Positions 15,180-20,016 of a stretch of 20,021 nt of DNA are shown one piece after another. Each line of letters starts with the position of its first letter. Position 1 is the stretch's first letter. The translations under genes and the position numbers were made by a program. Below the pieces are notes generated by a model, which did not search any database, was not told the origin of the DNA, and was given only the letters and a program-made list of their open reading frames with translations. The stretch is from a virus: IMG/VR virus record IMGVR_UViG_3300047552_001046, positions 1 to 20,021 of that record. One strand, written 5' to 3'.

Positions 15180-15713
15180 TTGAAGAAGACTATTATCGCA
15201 GCAGCACTAATCGCAGCATCTACTATTGCATCAGCACAATCATTCGTTGGTGTTGAAGTATCACCAGATACACGCAACAAGAACACCAACCGTGATGCAT
15301 CAACCTTTCTAGTCAATGCAGGTACCAATATTGGTCAATTCACTATTGACGCAATCGGAACTGCTGGTAAAGAAGATACTGGTTCATTGAATCAGACACT
15401 ACAAGGTCGTATTGCATACAATATGGGTCCAGTGTGGGCTCGTGCTGGTTATGGTCAGCAATTTGTGCAAGGTGATAATTACAACTTTATGACTTATGCA
15501 GTTGGTGGTGCACTACCAGTAACTAAAGAAGTTGCATTGACTGCATCAGTTGAGAAAGTTGATGCCGCAGGTCGTAGTGCTGATTTCAATGCATATAATG
15601 TTGGTGTAAATTATGCTTTGAATGCAAAGAGCACAGTATCAGCTGGATATCAAATCACTAATGGTGACTACGATTCCAAAGGTTTCAAAGTGGGATACAA
15701 CTATAAGTTCTAA
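15180..15713 (+). CDS. Phage-encoded outer-membrane beta-barrel protein
   Basis: A 177-residue protein with a TTG start set by AAGGAGA six bases upstream. Residues 1-19 form a clear Sec signal peptide (MKKTIIAAALIAASTIASA) with an Ala-x-Ala cleavage site. The mature part is about 158 residues of alternating amphipathic strands (LVNAGTNIGQFTIDAIGTAG, VWARAGYGQQF, VALTASVEKVD, STVSAGYQI) and ends with Phe, the Omp85 recognition signal. This is an 8-10-strand OmpA/OmpX-size barrel. Codons are GCA/CA-rich but otherwise like neighbours. In a phage it could alter the host surface, for example to block superinfection, as suggested for lambda Lom-like proteins. Confidence 0.8.
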   Translation: MKKTIIAAALIAASTIASAQSFVGVEVSPDTRNKNTNRDASTFLVNAGTNIGQFTIDAIGTAGKEDTGSLNQTLQGRIAYNMGPVWARAGYGQQFVQGDNYNFMTYAVGGALPVTKEVALTASVEKVDAAGRSADFNAYNVGVNYALNAKSTVSAGYQITNGDYDSKGFKVGYNYKF

Positions 15714-15722
15714 GTAATACAA

Positions 15723-15912
15723 AGGATCGTTTCTGCAAACCAAACTAAAAGACTATGTCAACATTCTAACAATGGAGAAATCTTGCAGTAGATGACAAAT
15801 CTGGAAAGACGGGTTGACTCATAGGAAAGACTGTGTGCTATATCAAGAAAGTATTGGTTGACAGTTGTGGAATAGACACAATGACACTAGGAAGAGACTA
15901 AACCACGATCCT
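15723..15912 (+). ncRNA. Candidate structured RNA (about 190 nt) with pseudoknot potential
   Basis: There is no ORF here, but complementary segments abound. AGGATCGT (15723-15730) pairs with ACGATCCT (15905-15912) and closes the region. CTGCAA (15733-15738) pairs with TTGCAG (15783-15788). CTATGTCAAC (15753-15762) pairs with GTTGAC-TC-ATAG (15813-15824) and crosses the previous helix. TTGTG-GAATAGA-CACAA (15865-15881) is a perfect 7-nt-loop hairpin. It matches no RNA family I recognise. Confidence 0.4.
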
Positions 15913-15923
15913 GTAAAAAAATA

Positions 15924-15953
15924 TTTTCACTTTTTCGTAAAAAATCGTGAAAA
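15924..15953. repeat. AT-rich inverted repeat
   Basis: TTTTCAC (15924-15930) and GTGAAAA (15947-15953) are exact inverted copies around an A/T loop. On the minus strand the hairpin is followed by a T-rich stretch, so it could terminate leftward transcription. On the + strand no T-run follows. Confidence 0.35.
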
Positions 15954-16010
15954 ATCAGTAAAGTAGGCATATATATTTAAAAGGCAGCACAATTTAACTA
16001 ACAGGGACTT

Positions 16011-16130
16011 ATGGCAAAAATGAGACATTTACAACCAACATTGATAGCAAAGCGAGAGAGCGGTGTTCCCGCATCCACTTGGCTCTCATGCGGTTTTAGC
16101 TATGATAACGCCATTGGAGGTCGAATGTAG
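16011..16130 (+). CDS. Putative 39-residue leader peptide
   Basis: ATG at 16011 opens 39 codons (MAKMRHLQPTLIAKRESGV... ending GGRM) and stops at TAG 16128-16130. A weak AGGGA lies 5 bases before. The ORF is followed at once by a pair of mutually exclusive hairpins, the first arm of which overlaps the stop codon. This arrangement is typical of attenuator leader ORFs. The DNA inside also contains inverted repeats (GAGAGC/GCTCTC), so it could be structured RNA and not a gene. No homologue recognised. Confidence 0.35.
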   Translation: MAKMRHLQPTLIAKRESGVPASTWLSCGFSYDNAIGGRM

Positions 16131-16195
16131 GGTCCTTGAACAGTAATACATGCAGCACAAAAGGACCCTGAAATTTCCAAGATTTCAGGGTTTTT
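16129..16195 (+). terminator. Rho-independent terminator with competing antiterminator (candidate attenuator)
   Basis: CCCTGAAAT (16166-16174), a 7-base loop, ATTTCAGGG (16182-16190) and TTTTT (16191-16195) make a strong intrinsic terminator. AGGGTCCTT (16129-16137) is exactly complementary to AAGGACCCT (16161-16169), which shares four bases with the terminator stem, so both helices cannot be complete together. The small ORF 16011-16130 ends on the first arm. Confidence 0.75.
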
Positions 16196-16224
16196 ACTTA
16201 TAAATCAACAAGTTAACGAGGGTA

Positions 16225-16267
16225 TTGTCAGAAACAAAAATCGTGTTATAATTGATTCATCGATTGA
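16225..16267 (+). promoter_or_regulatory. Promoter of the tRNA region
   Basis: TTGTCA (16225-16230), N16, TATAAT (16247-16252) and the following TGATTCATCGATTGA match the promoter at 6629-6649 base for base from -10 onward. It lies just after the terminator at 16166-16195 and before the 38-residue ORF and the tRNA array, so it probably drives both. Confidence 0.72.
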
Positions 16268-16286
16268 GAAACACAAAGGAAAAGAA

Positions 16287-16403
16287 ATGCGGAATCCAAT
16301 AGCAAAAGATTTGCGAACTCCAAAGTACAAAATGCGTATAGTTGGAGCGAAGAAGGGCAAAGGCTCTTGGAAACGTAAGGAGAAATATGCGGAGAAATAC
16401 TAA
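16287..16403 (+). CDS. Very small basic conserved protein
   Basis: A 38-residue, Lys-rich protein: MRNPIAKDLRTPKYKMRIVG, then KKGKGSWKRKEKYAEKY. AAAGGA stands at 16276-16281 and a good promoter lies 40 bases upstream. Tiny proteins starting M-K/R-N-P-x-A-K/R-x-L and followed by a basic tail recur in many phages and are usually annotated as hypothetical; this fits that pattern. The charge suggests nucleic-acid or ribosome binding. It is the first gene of the tRNA transcript. Confidence 0.72.
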   Translation: MRNPIAKDLRTPKYKMRIVGAKKGKGSWKRKEKYAEKY

Positions 16404-16419
16404 ACCGTAATCGTAGTAA

Positions 16420-16450
16420 TGTGGCAGGAAACGAGATCCTGAACCCCACA
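16420..16450 (+). ncRNA. Minihelix-like hairpin
   Basis: TGTGG then CAGGA-AACGAGA-TCCTG then a 4-base bulge and CCACA. The stacked 5-bp helix with a 7-base loop has the shape of a tRNA T-arm on a short acceptor stem. The rest of 16404-16520 shows only small hairpins (for example CTGAA-aaa-TTCAG, 16501-16513) and no gene. Confidence 0.3.
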
Positions 16451-16522
16451 ATAAACATGGTTCAAATGGGCGTGACTGAGGATGGATGATCTTGTGTGAT
16501 CTGAAAAATTCAGTTGATAATA

Positions 16523-16593
16523 AAGGATTCTCCTTACTTACCTAGAGGGATGTCGGTGTTAGCGCATACTGGGAGATGAGAGTTAGAATCCTT
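16523..16593 (+). ncRNA. Hairpin-closed RNA element, unassigned
   Basis: AAGGATTCT (16523-16531) and AGAATCCTT (16585-16593) are a perfect 9-bp inverted repeat, 71 nt overall, about tRNA size. No clear anticodon arm; ATGTCG-GTGTTAG-CGCAT inside is a candidate with one bulge. There is no 3' CCA. Confidence 0.3.
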
Positions 16594-16693
16594 CATTATC
16601 CTTCTTCTAACGAGGAAGTAACCAGAATTTGCGAAAGAGTGCAGTACAAGTGGATACTTGTCATCGAAACAACTGTGCTTTTGAACGGAACTA

Positions 16694-16816
16694 ATCCATC
16701 CGAAGCAAACCAGTTTCGACTGATGCCTTTAGCGAGGGAGTCTAGTACAGTGCGGATCGTTCTTCGGTGCTGTGCGATGTGATAGCGTTATCCGAGAGTA
16801 AGAGAACGTGATGGAT
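16694..16816 (+). ncRNA. Branched RNA element, unassigned
   Basis: ATCCATC (16694-16700) pairs with GATGGAT (16810-16816). Between them are CAGT-TTCG-ACTG (16711-16722, a UUCG tetraloop), ACAGTGC with GTGCTGT (16747-16773, two G-U) and GATA-GCGT-TATC (16781-16792). A closing helix with three internal hairpins in 123 nt suggests a folded RNA; the family is unknown. ORFs across it have no plausible RBS or motif. Confidence 0.35.
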
Positions 16817-16839
16817 AGCCCAGTCGAATTCAATTTGGT

Positions 16840-16915
16840 CTACTAGTAAGACTGTTCAGGTTCAATCCCTGTTAGTGCTGCGGCATTACTGGTAGTGTGT
16901 GGTACTAGTAGACCA
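16840..16915 (+). tRNA. tRNA-like gene with enlarged 5' arm containing a TTCAATC loop
   Basis: Exactly 76 nt with acceptor CTACTAG/CTAGTAG, U8A9, discriminator A and encoded CCA. The acceptor is extended outward and inward to a 12-bp helix (16837-16848 / 16903-16914). In the D-arm position is CAGG-TTCAATC-CCTG, a T-arm-like hairpin; in the T-arm position is a short CTGGTAGTG segment that looks like a D-loop. A middle stem TAGTG/CATTA (16873-16888) holds the 6-base loop CTGCGG, so GCG is a possible anticodon. The apparent exchange of D and T arms is unusual. tRNA identity uncertain. Confidence 0.4.
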
Positions 16916-16926
16916 AAAAACCATAT

Positions 16927-16990
16927 TTGTCGAACAGCATAATATACTTGCTGAAAAGAGCCTTAGCGGGAATTCGTATTCGACAAACCA
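16927..16990 (+). tRNA. Short tRNA-like element ending in ACCA
   Basis: Acceptor TTGTCGA/TCGACAA (part of a 9-bp perfect repeat) with discriminator A and encoded CCA, but only 64 nt long. One internal hairpin, CAGCA-n9-TGCTG (16935-16953), follows directly; no second or third arm with normal geometry can be drawn. It may be a minimal or decaying tRNA. Confidence 0.35.
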
Positions 16991-16991
16991 A

Positions 16992-17127
16992 ACTCGATGC
17001 AGCTTGAGTACGAGTGGGTATCCCTGCCGATCTTCTAAGGATCCTGGCACTCAGCCGAAAAGGGCAGGGCAGAATTTCAATCAAAGCCTAATTAACTTTG
17101 ATTGGAGGCGTGACTGATCATTACGCC
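16992..17127 (+). ncRNA. Hairpin-rich RNA segment, unassigned
   Basis: CCCTGCC (17022-17028) pairs with GGCAGGG (17063-17069) around GATC-TTCTAAG-GATC (17029-17043) and GGC-ACTCA-GCC (17046-17056). The loop TTCTAAG has anticodon-loop form and would present CTA. Also seen are ACTCG/CGAGT (16992-17015), CAATCAAAG/CTTTGATTG (17078-17104) and GGCGT/ACGCC (17107-17127). No standard tRNA can be drawn across these. Confidence 0.35.
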
Positions 17128-17129
17128 GG

Positions 17130-17220
17130 ACCGCAATGATGGAAATGGGAGACATAGGCCTCTTAAAGGGTCAGGTGAAATAAACGCACCATGTGGGTTC
17201 GAGTCCCACTTGCAATGGTC
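17130..17220 (+). tRNA. tRNA-Leu(UAA), irregular acceptor
   Basis: Class II tRNA: D-arm with GGGAGA, anticodon arm GGCCT/GGGTC with C-U-UAA-A (anticodon 17164-17166), long variable arm GGTG/CACC and a canonical T-arm GTGGG-TTCGAGT-CCCAC. The anticodon loop has only 6 bases. The acceptor ACCGCAA pairs with TTGC and GGT but with a 3-base AAT bulge (17214-17216) on the 3' side. No CCA is encoded. It could be partly degenerate. Confidence 0.6.
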
Positions 17221-17245
17221 TTAAGATCACAGAATTAAGATAGGT

Positions 17246-17516
17246 TGATTTGGTTACTGCAGGCTGGATCATCCTGTAAATCATGCAAGGCGGCACTACA
17301 TGTAAAACATGCCATGCCACTGAATAGTCTACAAAAGAGTATAGGACCAATGATAATGGGCTAGTTTTTGCCTACACTCTTGAACTGGAATAATCAACCA
17401 GAAGTAGAATTGAAGTCGGTCAGTCTTCTGATACTGACAAATCTTGCAGCTAAATGAGTCATCCTCTTTAGCGTGGGAAACGTGCAAGAAATCTTGGTCA
17501 TACCCTTGAACCAAGA
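17246..17516 (+). ncRNA. Hairpin-rich RNA segment, unassigned
   Basis: There is no gene here, but strong local pairing: TGATTT/AAATCA with inner CAGG/CCTG (17246-17283); GGCA...CATGT-aaa-ACATG...TGCC (17292-17318); an 11-bp stem AAGAGTATAGG/CCTACACTCTT with one A-C mismatch (17335-17381); GTCAGT/ACTGAC (17419-17438) with an 8-base loop containing CTTCTGA; TCTTGCA/TGCAAGA enclosing GCTAAA/TTTAGC (17442-17489); TCTTGGT/ACCAAGA (17492-17516). GGTTGATT (17243-17250) also complements AATCAACC (17392-17399), just before a CCA. These may be unrecognised tRNA-like genes. Confidence 0.35.
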
Positions 17517-17525
17517 ATGAATATT

Positions 17526-17617
17526 GGGGAGCGCAAGTAAGGACTAACTGGTGTAGTCGGGTGGCTGTAACCCACCTCCTAATAGGCATGGCGTTCGATT
17601 CGACCCGTTCCCCACCA
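17526..17617 (+). tRNA. tRNA-Tyr(GUA) with insertion after the acceptor
   Basis: Acceptor GGGGAGC/GTTCCCC, discriminator A and encoded CCA. Anticodon arm GGTGG-CTGTAAC-CCACC (GTA at 17567-17569), a class II variable arm CCT-AAT-AGG as expected for bacterial Tyr, and T-loop TTCGATT. Two oddities: nine bases (17533-17541) separate the acceptor from the D-stem GACT/AGTC where two are normal, and the T-stem has a bulged A on its 3' side. Confidence 0.78.
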
Positions 17618-17624
17618 AAACTAT

Positions 17625-17699
17625 TGCGCTATAAAGACCGTTACCATGGGCGACTCTATAGTATGAGAAATGTCAGTGCGAACCTGACTAGCGCAGCCA
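17625..17699 (+). tRNA. tRNA-like gene, anticodon not assignable
   Basis: 75 nt with perfect acceptor TGCGCTA/TAGCGCA, U8A9, discriminator G, encoded CCA and perfect T-stem GTCAG/CTGAC. The T-loop is TGCGAAC, with G at position 55. The D and anticodon regions do not give normal stems; CTC/GAG with an 8-base loop TATAGTAT is the best candidate. Identity left open. Confidence 0.5.
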
Positions 17700-17705
17700 A
17701 ACAAT

Positions 17706-17781
17706 AGTCCATTAGCTCAATCGGGAGAGCAGAGTGTTGATAACGCTCAGGTACTTGGATCGAAACCAAGATGGACTACCA
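17706..17781 (+). tRNA. tRNA-Ile(GAU)
   Basis: All stems are regular: acceptor AGTCCAT/ATGGACT, D-stem GCTC/GAGC with GG in the loop, anticodon arm GAGTG-TTGATAA-CGCTC (GAT at 17739-17741), T-stem CTTGG/CCAAG, discriminator A and encoded CCA. The T-loop is ATCGAAA, so position 54 is A where U is normal; this is the T-loop of eukaryotic initiator tRNA. Confidence 0.88.
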
Positions 17782-17786
17782 ACAAC

Positions 17787-17861
17787 ACACCGTGAGACAG
17801 CTGGCGTGGTCAGTAGCCTTTCAAGCTACCTAGATGGGATCGTAACCCATACGGTGTACCA
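17787..17861 (+). tRNA. tRNA-Glu(UUC), altered T-loop
   Basis: Acceptor ACACCGT/ACGGTGT, anticodon arm GTAGC-CTTTCAA-GCTAC (TTC at 17820-17822), T-stem ATGGG/CCCAT, discriminator A and encoded CCA. The T-loop is ATCGTAA: A54 and U58 instead of U54 and A58. Position 8 is G and position 14 is G. Stems are intact, so this is not simple decay. Confidence 0.85.
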
Positions 17862-17870
17862 AAATTAGGT

Positions 17871-17946
17871 GACATAGACTAATAGTGCTGCTATTGGTGT
17901 AATGACAGTTGAAGTCTGTAAAGGTAAGCCCCACCCTATGTCACCA
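17871..17946 (+). tRNA. tRNA-Phe(GAA), enlarged 5' arm and reduced T-arm
   Basis: 76 nt with acceptor GACATAG/CTATGTC, discriminator A and encoded CCA; leader GGT pairs with the trailer ACC to make 10 bp. The anticodon loop TTGAAGT sits on ACAG/CTGT. The D region is about 7 bases longer than normal and contains AATAG-TGCTG-CTATT; the T region is about 6-7 shorter, with GGT-AAGCCCC-ACC and no TTC. The total length stays normal, as in the tRNA-like gene at 16840. Confidence 0.6.
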
Positions 17947-17953
17947 ACAATAT

Positions 17954-17985
17954 TTGACAGTAATTATCCAGTATGTAATAATTAC
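17954..17985 (+). promoter_or_regulatory. Internal promoter in the tRNA array with overlapping palindrome
   Basis: TTGACA (17954-17959), a 17-base spacer and AATAAT (17977-17982) match sigma70 consensus at 11 of 12 positions. GTAATTAT (17960-17967) and ATAATTAC (17978-17985) are exact inverted copies overlapping spacer and -10, a possible operator. It would transcribe the tRNA-Leu at 17996 onward. Confidence 0.6.
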
Positions 17986-17995
17986 ATCATTGAAT

Positions 17996-18115
17996 GCAGG
18001 AGTGGCGGAACTGGTATACGCAACGGACTTCTTCAATGACATTGATAACATCCAGTGTCATTCTAAAAATCCGTCGACTTTTGTCATGTGGGTTCGACTC
18101 CCATCTCCTGTACCA
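17996..18115 (+). tRNA. tRNA-Leu with a 35-nt intron-like insertion in the anticodon loop
   Basis: Acceptor GCAGGAG/CTCCTGT, U8G9, D-arm with CTGGTA, variable arm GAC-TTTT-GTC, canonical T-loop TTCGACT, discriminator A and encoded CCA. The anticodon stem ACGGA/TCCGT (18023-18027 / 18070-18074) encloses 42 bases where 7 are normal. These fold as CTTCTTC, a 10-bp hairpin (18035-18062, one G-U) and CTAAAAA, a symmetric 7x7 internal loop. Joining CTT to AAAA would give a CTTAAAA loop with anticodon UAA; other junctions give other anticodons. Confidence 0.8.
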
Positions 18116-18130
18116 ATAAATAGTTTCAAT

Positions 18131-18205
18131 GGGCTCGTGGTGATAATGGGAGCACTTCTGTTTTGCAAGCAGAGAGACACGGATCGTAACCGTGCGGGTC
18201 CACCA
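18131..18205 (+). tRNA. tRNA-Ala(UGC), altered T-loop
   Basis: Acceptor GGGCTCG/CGGGTCC, anticodon arm TCTGT-TTTGCAA-GCAGA (TGC at 18164-18166), T-stem CACGG/CCGTG, discriminator A and encoded CCA. T-loop ATCGTAA (A54, U58). Position 14 is U; G18G19 are present. Confidence 0.87.
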
Positions 18206-18215
18206 AAGAATAAAT

Positions 18216-18289
18216 TGCGGCTTCAGATAGACTGACTCCAGGCTCATAACCTGTGATGGAATATGGAGCGTTACCATAGGCCGCATCCA
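18216..18289 (+). tRNA. tRNA(CAU), Met or Ile2, compact D-arm
   Basis: Acceptor TGCGGCT/GGCCGCA, anticodon loop CTCATAA (CAT at 18245-18247) on CAGG/CCTG, T-stem TATGG/CCATA, discriminator U and encoded CCA. The D-stem TCAG/CTGA directly abuts the acceptor with no position 8-9 linker; its loop is only ATAGA. The variable loop is 7 bases. T-loop AGCGTTA (A54, G55, U58). Met versus lysidine-modified Ile cannot be decided. Confidence 0.75.
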
Positions 18290-18299
18290 GTAACACAAT

Positions 18300-18374
18300 T
18301 CCCTGTTAGCTCAGTGGCAGAGCAATCGCCTTGTAAGCGATAGGTCGAGATCTCGGAATTCTCACAGGGAACCA
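18300..18374 (+). tRNA. tRNA-Thr(UGU)
   Basis: Acceptor TCCCTGT/ACAGGGA, canonical U8A9 and D-arm GCTC/GAGC, anticodon arm ATCGC-CTTGTAA-GCGAT (TGT at 18332-18334), discriminator A and encoded CCA. The T-arm is GAGAT-CTCGGAA-TTCTC: a U-U mismatch replaces the invariant G53-C61 pair, and the loop has C54 and G58. Confidence 0.88.
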
Positions 18375-18393
18375 ATGAATTAGTTGTATTTGA

Positions 18394-18468
18394 TGTGTGC
18401 GAGCAAGCAAGGTGTAAGCGGCTGGCTGTTAACCAGCATAGAGCTAGGTTCGATTCCTAGGCACACAG
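18394..18468 (+). tRNA. tRNA-Asn(GUU) in a 17-bp extended acceptor helix
   Basis: Acceptor TGTGTGC/GCACACA, anticodon arm GCTGG-CTGTTAA-CCAGC (GTT), canonical T-loop TTCGATT and discriminator G; no CCA encoded. The D-stem is weak (two pairs). Leader TTGTATTTG and trailer CAAATACAA are exact complements, so with the acceptor about 17 pairs form with one mismatch. Leader-trailer pairing this long would affect RNase P and 3' trimming. Confidence 0.8.
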
Positions 18469-18482
18469 CAAATACAATTTAT

Positions 18483-18556
18483 CTCGTCGTAACTCAATGG
18501 ATTAGAGTATTCGGCTTCTACCCGAATTGTTGGGGGTTCGAGTCCCTCCGACGAGG
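18483..18556 (+). tRNA. tRNA-Arg(UCU)
   Basis: Regular cloverleaf: acceptor CTCGTCG/CGACGAG, U8A9, D-stem ACTC/GAGT, anticodon arm TTCGG-CTTCTAC-CCGAA (TCT at 18517-18519), T-loop TTCGAGT and discriminator G. CCA is not encoded. Leader TTTAT and trailer ATAAA can pair after a 2-base offset, extending the acceptor helix. Confidence 0.9.
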
Positions 18557-18598
18557 CATAAAGTAAATTTTACATATATACACATAGGAGGACAATTT

Positions 18599-19285
18599 AT
18601 GTTCTATTATTTGTATGAAATCAGGAACAACCTGAATGGTAAAATTTACGTAGGAGTTCATAAAACCAATGATATGAATGATGGTTATATGGGCTCTGGA
18701 AAAGTTATTCGACGAGCTATAGAAAAGTATGGTGTCGAAAACTTCACAAAGACTGTACTTGAAGAATTCGGTACAGCTGAAGAAATGTTTGCGAAAGAAA
18801 AAGAAGTAGTGAATGATGAATTTCTTCTTAGAGAAGATGTGTATAACCTAAGACGAGGTGGATTCGGTGGGTTTGAGTTTATCAATAAAAATGGTTTAAA
18901 TTTATTTGAAAATCTCTCTGCAGAAAGTCAACAAAAACACAGAGAATCTGGTCGTCGATCCGCAATAAGACTTAGAGATTCTAAACGAGGGATTCATGGA
19001 CTTTCAGCTGAAGATCGTGTAAAAAACAGCAAAAAAGGTATAAAGAAACTTCATGAAGTTATGCTTGAGAAACATGGAGTAAAATCTTTTTTTGGGCAAC
19101 TGAATAAATTACCATCTTTTCAAGAAAAAAGAAAACAAGCATTTGCTGATATTGGGCATCAGCAAGGCGAAAAGAATAGTCAATATGGAACTATGTGGAT
19201 CACAAACGAAATTGAAAGTATCAAAATCATGAAATCACAACCGATACCTCAAGGGTGGAGAAAAGGTAGAAAAATAAAGAAATAA
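18599..19285 (+). CDS. GIY-YIG homing endonuclease inserted in the tRNA array
   Basis: A 228-residue protein, ATG at 18599 with TAGGAGGA at 18586-18593; longer in-frame starts overlap tRNA-Arg. The N-terminus FYYLYEIRNNLNGKIYVGVHKT is the GIY-YIG core, followed by RRAIEKYGVENF with the conserved Arg and FAKEKEVV with the conserved Glu, a complete nuclease site. The C-terminal half holds a basic region and ends GTMWITNEIES...IPQGWRKGRK, a module common at the end of phage homing endonucleases. T4 likewise carries endonuclease seg genes by its tRNA cluster. It separates tRNA-Arg and tRNA-Pro without breaking either. Confidence 0.92.
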   Translation: MFYYLYEIRNNLNGKIYVGVHKTNDMNDGYMGSGKVIRRAIEKYGVENFTKTVLEEFGTAEEMFAKEKEVVNDEFLLREDVYNLRRGGFGGFEFINKNGLNLFENLSAESQQKHRESGRRSAIRLRDSKRGIHGLSAEDRVKNSKKGIKKLHEVMLEKHGVKSFFGQLNKLPSFQEKRKQAFADIGHQQGEKNSQYGTMWITNEIESIKIMKSQPIPQGWRKGRKIKK

Positions 19286-19300
19286 GTTAGTACTCAGTGT

Positions 19301-19375
19301 CTAGGTGTATTGTCAATCTGGTAGACGGCCCTCTTTGGAAGTGGGAGGCTGCAAGTTCAAATCTTGCCACCTAGA
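19301..19375 (+). tRNA. tRNA-Pro(UGG) in a perfect 17-bp extended acceptor helix
   Basis: Acceptor CTAGGTG/CACCTAG, D-arm with CTGGTA, anticodon arm CCCTC-TTTGGAA-GTGGG (TGG at 19336-19338; one T-T mismatch), canonical T-arm GCAAG-TTCAAAT-CTTGC and discriminator A. CCA is not encoded. The leader TACTCAGTGT (19291-19300) pairs perfectly with ACACTGAGTA (19375-19384), giving 17 continuous base pairs with the acceptor. Confidence 0.88.
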
Positions 19376-19389
19376 CACTGAGTATTATT

Positions 19390-19484
19390 GTTCCTCAGCT
19401 TTGGTGAGCGGCGGTGTCTTATAAACACTGGAGAGTGGCTAGATTGGCTGCAACGGCACGGATCGTAACCGTGGAGGAATACCA
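19390..19484 (+). tRNA. tRNA-Ile(UAU)-like with 27-nt variable-region insertion
   Basis: Acceptor GTTCCTC/GAGGAAT, D-stem GCT/AGC, anticodon arm GGTGT-CTTATAA-ACACT (TAT at 19420-19422), T-stem CACGG/CCGTG, T-loop ATCGTAA, discriminator A and encoded CCA. The variable region (19430-19456) has 27 bases where 4-5 are normal for Ile, without a clear class II stem. It includes GTGGCTAGATTGGCTGC, which looks D-arm-like. Confidence 0.65.
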
Positions 19485-19519
19485 AAATTTGTCTGTGTAT
19501 GAAGTGATCTAGTCAATCC

Positions 19520-19620
19520 ACCTTAATCGTCAAGGTACTAACAACATCCTATCATCGTATGTGACAATACGGAAAATGGTAGGAGAGTCAAACTGTACTC
19601 TTAAACACATCGACGATAGG
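19520..19620 (+). ncRNA. Hairpin elements, unassigned
   Basis: ACCTT-AATCGTC-AAGGT (19520-19536) is a perfect 5-bp, 7-loop hairpin. CCTATC-A-TCG (19548-19557) pairs with CGA-C-GATAGG (19611-19620); this 73-nt unit holds AGAGT/ACTCT inside. It is tRNA-sized but has no clear anticodon or CCA. Confidence 0.3.
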
Positions 19621-19633
19621 CAATTTGAATTAT

Positions 19634-19708
19634 GCGGGTAAGGTGTTGGTGGTTACACGACAGTCTTCCAAACTGTAGTGCTCGGATCGTGCCCGAGTAC
19701 CCGCTCCA
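19634..19708 (+). tRNA. tRNA-Gly(UCC), inverted tertiary positions
   Basis: Acceptor GCGGGTA/TACCCGC, D-stem GTGT/ACAC with GG in the loop, anticodon arm ACAGT-CTTCCAA-ACTGT (TCC at 19667-19669), T-stem CTCGG/CCGAG, discriminator U and encoded CCA. Position 8 is A and 14 is U; T-loop ATCGTGC has A54 and U58. Confidence 0.88.
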
Positions 19709-19715
19709 GTCTCAA

Positions 19716-19770
19716 AGGATGCGTTCAGCAAACTTAAAAATTAGACTTTTAATCTAAAAATAAGCATCCT
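19716..19770 (+). tRNA. Miniature tRNA-Lys(UUU) without T-arm
   Basis: Perfect acceptor AGGATGC/GCATCCT and perfect anticodon arm TTAGA-CTTTTAA-TCTAA (TTT), yet only 55 nt in all. The anticodon stem is joined to the 3' acceptor strand by six bases (AAATAA) with no T-arm; the 5' side has 18 bases with at most GTT/AAC pairing. CCA is not encoded. The shape recalls metazoan mitochondrial mini-tRNAs. It may be a decoy or a true minimal tRNA. Confidence 0.55.
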
Positions 19771-19780
19771 GTTTAGTTAT

Positions 19781-19855
19781 AGTTCCGAAGTGTTCATAGA
19801 CGCACACTAGACTGTCAATCTAGAAGAGCGGGAGCGTTACCCGTCGGAGCTGCCA
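19781..19855 (+). tRNA. tRNA-Asp(GUC), inverted tertiary positions
   Basis: Acceptor AGTTCCG/CGGAGCT, D-stem GTGT/GCAC, anticodon arm CTAGA-CTGTCAA-TCTAG (GTC at 19814-19816), T-stem GCGGG/CCCGT, discriminator G and encoded CCA. Position 8 is A and 14 is U. Position 18 is A and 55 is G. T-loop AGCGTTA has A54 and U58. All stems are intact. Confidence 0.88.
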
Positions 19856-19861
19856 ATCAAT

Positions 19862-19935
19862 GGGTCATTAGTTCAATAGTAGAACATCTGGCTTTTAACC
19901 AGTCGACGAAGGGGCGGAACCTTCATGGCCTACCA
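19862..19935 (+). tRNA. tRNA-Lys(UUU)
   Basis: Acceptor GGGTCAT/ATGGCCT, D-stem GTTC/GAAC, anticodon loop CTTTTAA (TTT at 19894-19896), T-stem GAAGG/CCTTC, discriminator A and encoded CCA. The D-loop is AATAGTA (A18, G19) and the T-loop GGCGGAA (G54, G55, G58). Confidence 0.88.
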
Positions 19936-19941
19936 AAATAA

Positions 19942-20016
19942 GGATTGCAAGCTTTAATGGTGAAGCATACGGCTCTTACCCGTAAGAACACAGATCGTTA
20001 CTGTGGCAATCCACCA
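19942..20016 (+). tRNA. tRNA-Lys(CUU), inverted tertiary positions
   Basis: Acceptor GGATTGC/GCAATCC, D-stem GCTT/AAGC with GG, anticodon arm TACGG-CTCTTAC-CCGTA (CTT at 19975-19977), T-stem CACAG/CTGTG, discriminator A and encoded CCA. Position 8 is A, 14 is U, and the T-loop ATCGTTA has A54 and U58. Confidence 0.88.

Follow-up and report, generated by a model that had tools for sequence, protein, structure and literature searches.

The window analysed here, a 20,021-base virus contig (IMG/VR record IMGVR_UViG_3300047552_001046), belongs to a tailed phage and ends in an array of transfer RNA (tRNA) genes. Many of these genes have T-loops that depart from the standard UUCRA sequence (R, purine). 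They are best read as working elongator tRNAs in which the elbow would be kept by compensatory substitution, a reading that we give a probability of about 0.8. When bases of the T-loop change, their partners in the D-loop change with them, and features needed for charging are preserved. Many large phages have exchanged the near-universal bases of the tRNA corner in this matched way; the shape probably survives, and the sequence normally met by host enzymes is altered.

Compensation between the D-loop and the T-loop

The survey set comprised 2,004 unique tRNAs, mostly from viral contigs, and 1,828 of these had an encoded CCA. In this pattern-enriched set, 361 of the 1,828 had non-UUCRA T-loops, and 141 carried something other than UC at positions 55-56. 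Pairing was judged by a fixed rule: position 18 should be G facing U55 or C55 and A facing G55, and position 19 should be the Watson-Crick complement of position 56. The predicted D-loop bases were present in 140 of the 141, and the matched states seen were G55/A18, U56/A19, A56/U19, and G56/C19. When D-loops were shuffled among the 141, a mean of 67 fit the rule, with a maximum of 89 in 5,000 trials. Drawing D-loops from all tRNAs gave 31.

The classes without UC at 55-56 span 34 anticodons and 74 contigs, and clustering at 75% identity divides the G55 class alone into 63 groups. Tree-independent pairs were also compared, using a tree built from short sequences with the loops removed. They showed that the paired substitutions do not depend on ancestry, and they linked G55 with A18 in a median of 26 of 26 cases (p = 3e-8) and U56 with A19 in 20 of 20 (p = 2e-6).

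Sister tRNAs with 92-96% identity beyond the loops show matched double changes directly: Glu in L138 and L047, Gly in L158 and L068, and Gly in L154 and L074 (L numbers are our handles for surveyed loci). For instance, the D-loop and T-loop of the Glu sisters read TCTGGTGA/ATCGTAA and TCTAGTGA/GGCAGAA, and those of Gly sisters read AGTGGCA/TTCGATT and AGTGATA/TTTGATT. Among close relatives, tRNA-Asp has A18-G55 in the window (TTCATAGAC, AGCGTTA) and G18-U55 in L049 (TTCATGGAC, ATCGTTA), and tRNA-Ala has A19-U56 in L001 and C19-G56 in L002. Positions 18-55 and 19-56 thus still match, through compensated base identities. This shows, as far as sequence can, that the contact between D-loop and T-loop is retained in the rewritten tRNAs, the A54/U58 class included.

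Positions 54, 58, and 60

The 54-58 pair was tabulated in 1,776 tRNAs, with U-A in 1,528, A-U in 178, A-A in 34, G-G in 21, C-A in 11, and other pairs in 4. U58 was absent from tRNAs without A54. Position 60 takes part as well, as A60 accompanies a purine at 54: it was found in 196 of 213 A54 tRNAs (92%), compared with 32 of 1,529 U54 tRNAs (2%). In tree-independent pairs, position 58 goes with 54 (p = 2e-9) and position 54 with 60 (p = 7e-9). The reverse-Hoogsteen pair 8-14 shows the same replacements (A-U, A-A, and G-G) at lower rates, and its tree-corrected support is weaker (median p = 0.004, range up to 0.13).

Two further patterns were considered and rejected. An association of A54/U58 with a swapped A8/U14 pair appeared in raw counts (30 of 167, compared with 15 of 1,045) and disappeared in tree-independent pairs, which points to shared ancestry. 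We also gave up the idea of A54/U58 as a favoured end state, since the sample is anchored on that pattern; the commonest change in loci anchored on canonical tRNAs is G55.

Signs of function

Non-canonical tRNAs resemble canonical ones in acceptor pairing (98%), a purine at position 37 (R37, 95-99%), and a pyrimidine at position 32 (Y32). In the A54/U58 class, R37 reaches 99%. U33 and R37 occur together with the identity elements for aminoacylation. The Ala element G3:U70 was present in 16 of 16 non-canonical Ala tRNAs and in 5 of 345 other non-canonical tRNAs, and G73 was present in 34 of 34 non-canonical Asp tRNAs. For isotypes with A73, that base was demanded by the search pattern in some of the set, so identity tests are limited to G73, U73, and G3:U70. 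The kept acceptor pairing, R37, Y32, G3:U70, and G73 argue for selection on charging, and intact identity elements make decay unlikely. Presumably the rewritten phage tRNAs are transcribed and processed, receive their amino acids from host synthetases, and serve in translation on the ribosome.

Modification would differ. TrmA and TrmFO methylate no base but U54, and A54 tRNAs should therefore be without 5-methyluridine at position 54 (m5U54) and unable to receive it. G55 tRNAs, in turn, should be unable to carry pseudouridine-55.

The tRNA array of the window

The array fills the final 2.4 kb of the window (17.6-20.0 kb). ARAGORN reported ten tRNA genes in the window, and Rfam RF00005 gave nine matches, all exceeding the gathering score. 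A scanner that is blind to T-loop sequence and requires regular stems also found tRNA-Asp, which scored below the Rfam cut-off. Ten shuffled windows gave no matches at score 46, and a single match was found at score 50 in 565 kb of shuffled loci. Chance is ruled out because this scanner recovers the well-formed genes and the shuffled controls are nearly empty. The genes of the array are as follows.

17625..17699 (+), damaged tRNA-like gene: T-loop TGCGAAC, CCA encoded; folds its acceptor and T stems but neither the D arm nor the anticodon arm
17706..17781 (+), tRNA-Ile-GAU: T-loop ATCGAAA (A54-A58, A60), G18G19; Rfam tRNA 55.9 bits
17787..17861 (+), tRNA-Glu-UUC: T-loop ATCGTAA (A54-U58, A60), C15-G48; same T-loop in the L049 counterpart
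17996..18115 (+), tRNA-Leu: canonical TTCGACT; hairpin insertion of about 33 nt in the anticodon loop; Rfam tRNA 42.3 bits across the insert
18131..18205 (+), tRNA-Ala-UGC: T-loop ATCGTAA (A54-U58), G3:U70 present; ATCGTTA in the L003, L023, and L049 counterparts
18216..18289 (+), tRNA-like gene (anticodon CAU): T-loop AGCGTTA, D-loop containing AG, D arm irregular, 7-nt variable region; minimum free energy fold not a clean cloverleaf
18300..18374 (+), tRNA-Thr-UGU: T-loop CTCGGAA (C54-G58), U-U at 53-61; loop recurs in L074 and L142
18394..18469 (+), tRNA-Asn-GUU: canonical TTCGATT
18483..18557 (+), tRNA-Arg-UCU: canonical TTCGAGT; 63.1 bits
18602..19285 (+), GIY-YIG homing endonuclease gene within the array: Pfam PF01541, E = 1.7e-4
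19301..19376 (+), tRNA-Pro-UGG: canonical TTCAAAT
19390..19484 (+), tRNA-Ile-UAU: T-loop ATCGTAA (A54-U58), 27-nt variable arm
19634..19708 (+), tRNA-Gly-UCC: T-loop ATCGTGC (A54-U58), A8/U14, U73
19781..19855 (+), tRNA-Asp-GUC: T-loop AGCGTTA (A54-U58, G55), D-loop A18G19, A8/U14, G73; L049 counterpart has U55 with G18
19862..19935 (+), tRNA-Lys-UUU: T-loop GGCGGAA (G54-G58, G55), D-loop A18G19; L001 counterpart GGCAGTA with the same D-loop
19942..20016 (+), tRNA-Lys-CUU: T-loop ATCGTTA (A54-U58), A8/U14

Eleven window genes thus lack a UUCRA loop with U54-A58: eight well-formed tRNAs, the Thr gene with its T-stem mismatch, and two damaged genes. An earlier note, made from the letters of the window, had listed these eleven T-loops and counted A54/U58 in seven genes. 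Every loop was found where it had been placed, the count of seven was right, and the T-loops bear out its statement that positions of the tertiary core are rewritten. Its claim of intact stems in all eleven stands for most of them. Most window tRNAs fold as cloverleaves with a 7-bp acceptor stem, 5-bp anticodon and T stems, and 7-nt loops; the CAU gene (18216) and the 17625 gene do not form clean cloverleaves, and the U-U at 53-61 interrupts the T stem of Thr. The array is mixed, since its Asn, Arg, Pro, and interrupted Leu genes have canonical UUCRA loops. The Leu insertion carries a 7-bp hairpin (AATGACA/TGTCATT), and the Leu-UAA genes of L001 and L002 are uninterrupted.

Relatives and cultured phages

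Related contigs were gathered by queries with two window proteins, and their arrays adjoin the same genes on the downstream side. The earlier note had asked whether relatives conserve the A54/U58 state, and they do. In tRNA-Ala-UGC it is common to the window, L003, L023, and L049, and the Glu loop ATCGTAA is common to the window and L049. The state is also widespread in phage arrays: among the matches listed for an A54/U58 T-arm and CCA pattern in viral contigs, at least 107 fall in complete tRNAs. The G54-G58-G55 state of tRNA-Lys-UUU is shared by the window and L001, which also has Pro with ATCGTAA and Ser with ATCGTGA.

Rewritten tRNAs occur in cultured phages too, namely Stenotrophomonas phage DLP_6, Xanthomonas phage X1, Erwinia phage Cronus, and Rhodobacter phage RcXuper. 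The only non-canonical loop of ValKK3 is a C54 loop. A search for the Thr-GGU consensus among isolates gave a single match, an uncultured record. No close cultured phage came up when the window sequence itself was compared by BLAST, and the nearest kin of one window protein are in cyanophages at about 27% identity.

Some tRNAs of these arrays also have unusual variable arms. tRNA-Ile-UAU has a long, class-II-like arm in the window (19390-19484), L001 (16733-16827), L175 (4633-4724), L165 (5800-5890, minus strand), and L171 (3340-3430, minus strand). The near-identical copies in L165 and L171 have the T-loops ATCGATA and ATCGTTA, a step from A54-A58 to A54-U58. Relatives also have extended arms in tRNAs for Gly, Glu, and Pro, isotypes that ordinarily belong to class I (L001 14816, L002 15420, L049 8271 and 12441).

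Frequency and hosts

Up to the contig of L050, the A54/U58 pattern gave 7 rows and the canonical pattern 70, with shared contigs in the same order. If both lists follow scan order, this suggests that A54/U58 is about one in ten of canonical.

In cells the state is rare. An A54/U58 pattern anchored on the D-arm had 11 matches in 84,980 cell genomes, mostly in mobile-looking tRNA arrays (L164, L165, L168, L170, and L171), and the canonical counterpart was present in 99 of 100 sampled Pseudomonadota genomes. The state therefore belongs to phages and similar elements rather than to their hosts. L165 and L171, from Xanthobacteraceae and Rhodoplanes metagenome-assembled genome (MAG) contigs, carry clusters of 15-25 tRNAs with up to 10 non-canonical elbows; these clusters are probably mobile elements or prophages. 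A few A54/U58 tRNAs are apparently chromosomal (L167 333-408, L174 3406-3481, L172 3234-3309, and L173 3521-3596): two Patescibacteria have such an Ala-GGC, and two Bacilli MAGs such a Phe.

Interpretation and alternative explanations

The proposed elbow would change by exchange of interacting bases. The closing pair 54-58 would go from U-A to A-U (or A-A, G-G, or C-A), a purine at 54 being accompanied by A60. The intercalated contact 18-55 would go from G-U to A-G in step. At 19-56, a tertiary Watson-Crick pair, G-C would be replaced by A-U, U-A, or C-G, always in step. Phage tRNAs would be freed from the constraint that fixes elbow sequence in cells, and only the shape of the elbow would have to stay.

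Several points weigh against this reading or limit its reach. The geometry of A54-U58 is no standard isosteric replacement. A large share of the survey set was gathered through the A54/U58 pattern, which inflates the frequency of that state; in loci anchored on canonical tRNAs, with the anchor tRNAs removed, non-UUCRA loops make up 32 of 266 (12%) and A54/U58 5 of 266. The T4-like arrays of 44RR, S-PM2, and Cronobacter phage S13 have no A54/U58 tRNAs. Finally, the scanner's assumption of regular stems under-counts badly decayed genes.

Relaxed constraint is the likeliest evolutionary reason for the changes. Directional selection is a less probable account: the elbow would be rewritten to evade tRNA nucleases of anti-phage systems, or TrmA/TrmFO and TruB, whether of the host or of a rival. 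Some host defences do act by cutting tRNAs, and close to where the cuts fall phage tRNAs have changes that allow escape (PMC10264068). Genes for two RNA ligases and a polynucleotide kinase are present in the window phage, and isotypes are unequally affected, with an unanchored non-canonical share of 42% in Asp, 35% in Phe, 33% in Ile, and 3-4% in Ser and Leu. However, this bias fits no known nuclease target list, canonical and rewritten tRNAs adjoin in one array, and relaxed constraint predicts the same co-variation. Known host defences cut tRNAs in the anticodon arm, the variable loop, or the CCA tail. We know of no phage-defence enzyme that reads positions 54, 55, and 58 or 18 and 19, and for this reason relaxed constraint is preferred to escape. 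Some directional pressure may still come from evading elbow-reading host enzymes.

A bolder form of the idea, and a doubtful one, is a second natural elbow code. A few interchangeable compensated states at 54-58-60, 18-55, 19-56, and 8-14 would then hide phage tRNAs from elbow-reading host enzymes. If so, the phage tRNA pool would be biochemically separable from that of the host.

The earlier note had taken the A54-U58 swap to require a different T-loop fold. It overlooked the compensation in the D-loop, and with the contact retained such a requirement is not supported. A new fold that abandons the classical elbow is improbable, because 18-55 and 19-56 obey the co-variation rule in every class, including A54/U58, which implies that the D-loop still docks. 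The 8-14 replacements likewise suggest local substitution. It would be simpler to assume an almost canonical elbow in which the 54-58 pair is substituted.

Decay into pseudogenes without a T-loop consensus is very unlikely, and co-variation refutes it for the well-formed genes. The 17625 and 18216 genes are indeed damaged in the D or anticodon arm, and Leu is interrupted; the earlier note's argument against decay holds for most of the set. The compensatory pairing, the acceptor pairing and R37, the intact identity elements, and the same states in relatives and cultured phages all speak against decay. Copying from hosts whose own tRNAs look alike has next to no likelihood: the Patescibacteria and Bacilli cases provide a few such hosts, but the anchored matches in cell genomes are few and mostly in mobile-looking arrays, and the canonical form prevails in the sampled Pseudomonadota.

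Comparison with known tRNAs

The contacts of the canonical elbow have been described (PMC4810234), and the phage tRNAs keep them by means of other bases. Like the canonical bacterial elongator tRNA (RF00005), they have the cloverleaf, encoded CCA, U33, R37, identity elements, and stems, and for most window genes the Rfam score exceeds the cut-off or comes close to it. They differ at U54, A58, U55, C56, G18, G19, and Y60, which give way to other bases one at a time or as matched pairs.

Eukaryotic initiator tRNAs have A60. Their loop ATCGAAA, in which A54 occurs with A60, is shared by the window's Ile-GAU and by the Phe tRNA of L001. The full A54/A58/A60 combination is thus found in window Ile-GAU and not in the A54/U58 genes. 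An initiator role with a CAU anticodon does not apply, the anticodons being GAU, UUC, UGC, UCC, GUC, UUU, CUU, and UAU. A review of initiators reports A54 and the A54-A58 pair and does not mention A54-U58 (PMC7912444). Unlike initiators, the phage tRNAs are elongators, belong to bacterial phages, and have usually gone on to A54-U58.

Metazoan mitochondrial tRNAs have also lost the universal D-loop and T-loop sequences under relaxed constraint (PMC7609411). In Type II mitochondrial tRNAs the contact itself is lost, whereas the co-variation indicates that phage tRNAs keep it by compensation. In suppressor tRNAs selected from random libraries by the Steinberg group, an active molecule reportedly needed G18 if position 55 was U and A18 if it was G. 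This unconfirmed lead would make their 18-55 rule the same as the natural one of phages. The selected clones are said to have mostly kept U54-A58, unlike the phage tRNAs.

Phage tRNAs with escape mutations in the anticodon loop likewise differ from those of the host at positions potentially recognised by host enzymes (PMC10264068). The changes described here differ in that they sit at the elbow, are paired, and are not known to be read by any enzyme. The literature searched contained no description of A54-U58 or of natural 18-55/19-56 co-variation in phage tRNAs.

In cells, G18, G19, U54, U55, C56, and A58 are near-invariant, so their pairings are hardly open to comparison in bacteria. Phage arrays offer naturally swapped pairs, from which the substitutions that the elbow can tolerate may be read. 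Since sites for m5U54, and sometimes for pseudouridine-55, are missing, the purpose of these modifications can be tested directly. Rewritten tRNAs also allow a test of whether host defences that target tRNAs read the elbow. With gene finders tuned to the UUCRA loop, such genes receive low scores or are overlooked.

Genes and RNA region next to the array

Other genes of the window phage encode GTP cyclohydrolase, a QueD-like protein, two RNA ligases, a polynucleotide kinase-phosphatase, and homing endonucleases. Positions 15180-15713 encode a signal-peptide beta-barrel, outer-membrane-like protein with no PHROG match. Directly downstream of it lies an RNA region of about 1.9 kb (15720-17620) with little convincing coding and many stem-loops, some of which end in CCA after a long terminal helix (for instance, 16834-16914 and 16927-16990). 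Parts of this region are conserved in L001, L002, and L023.

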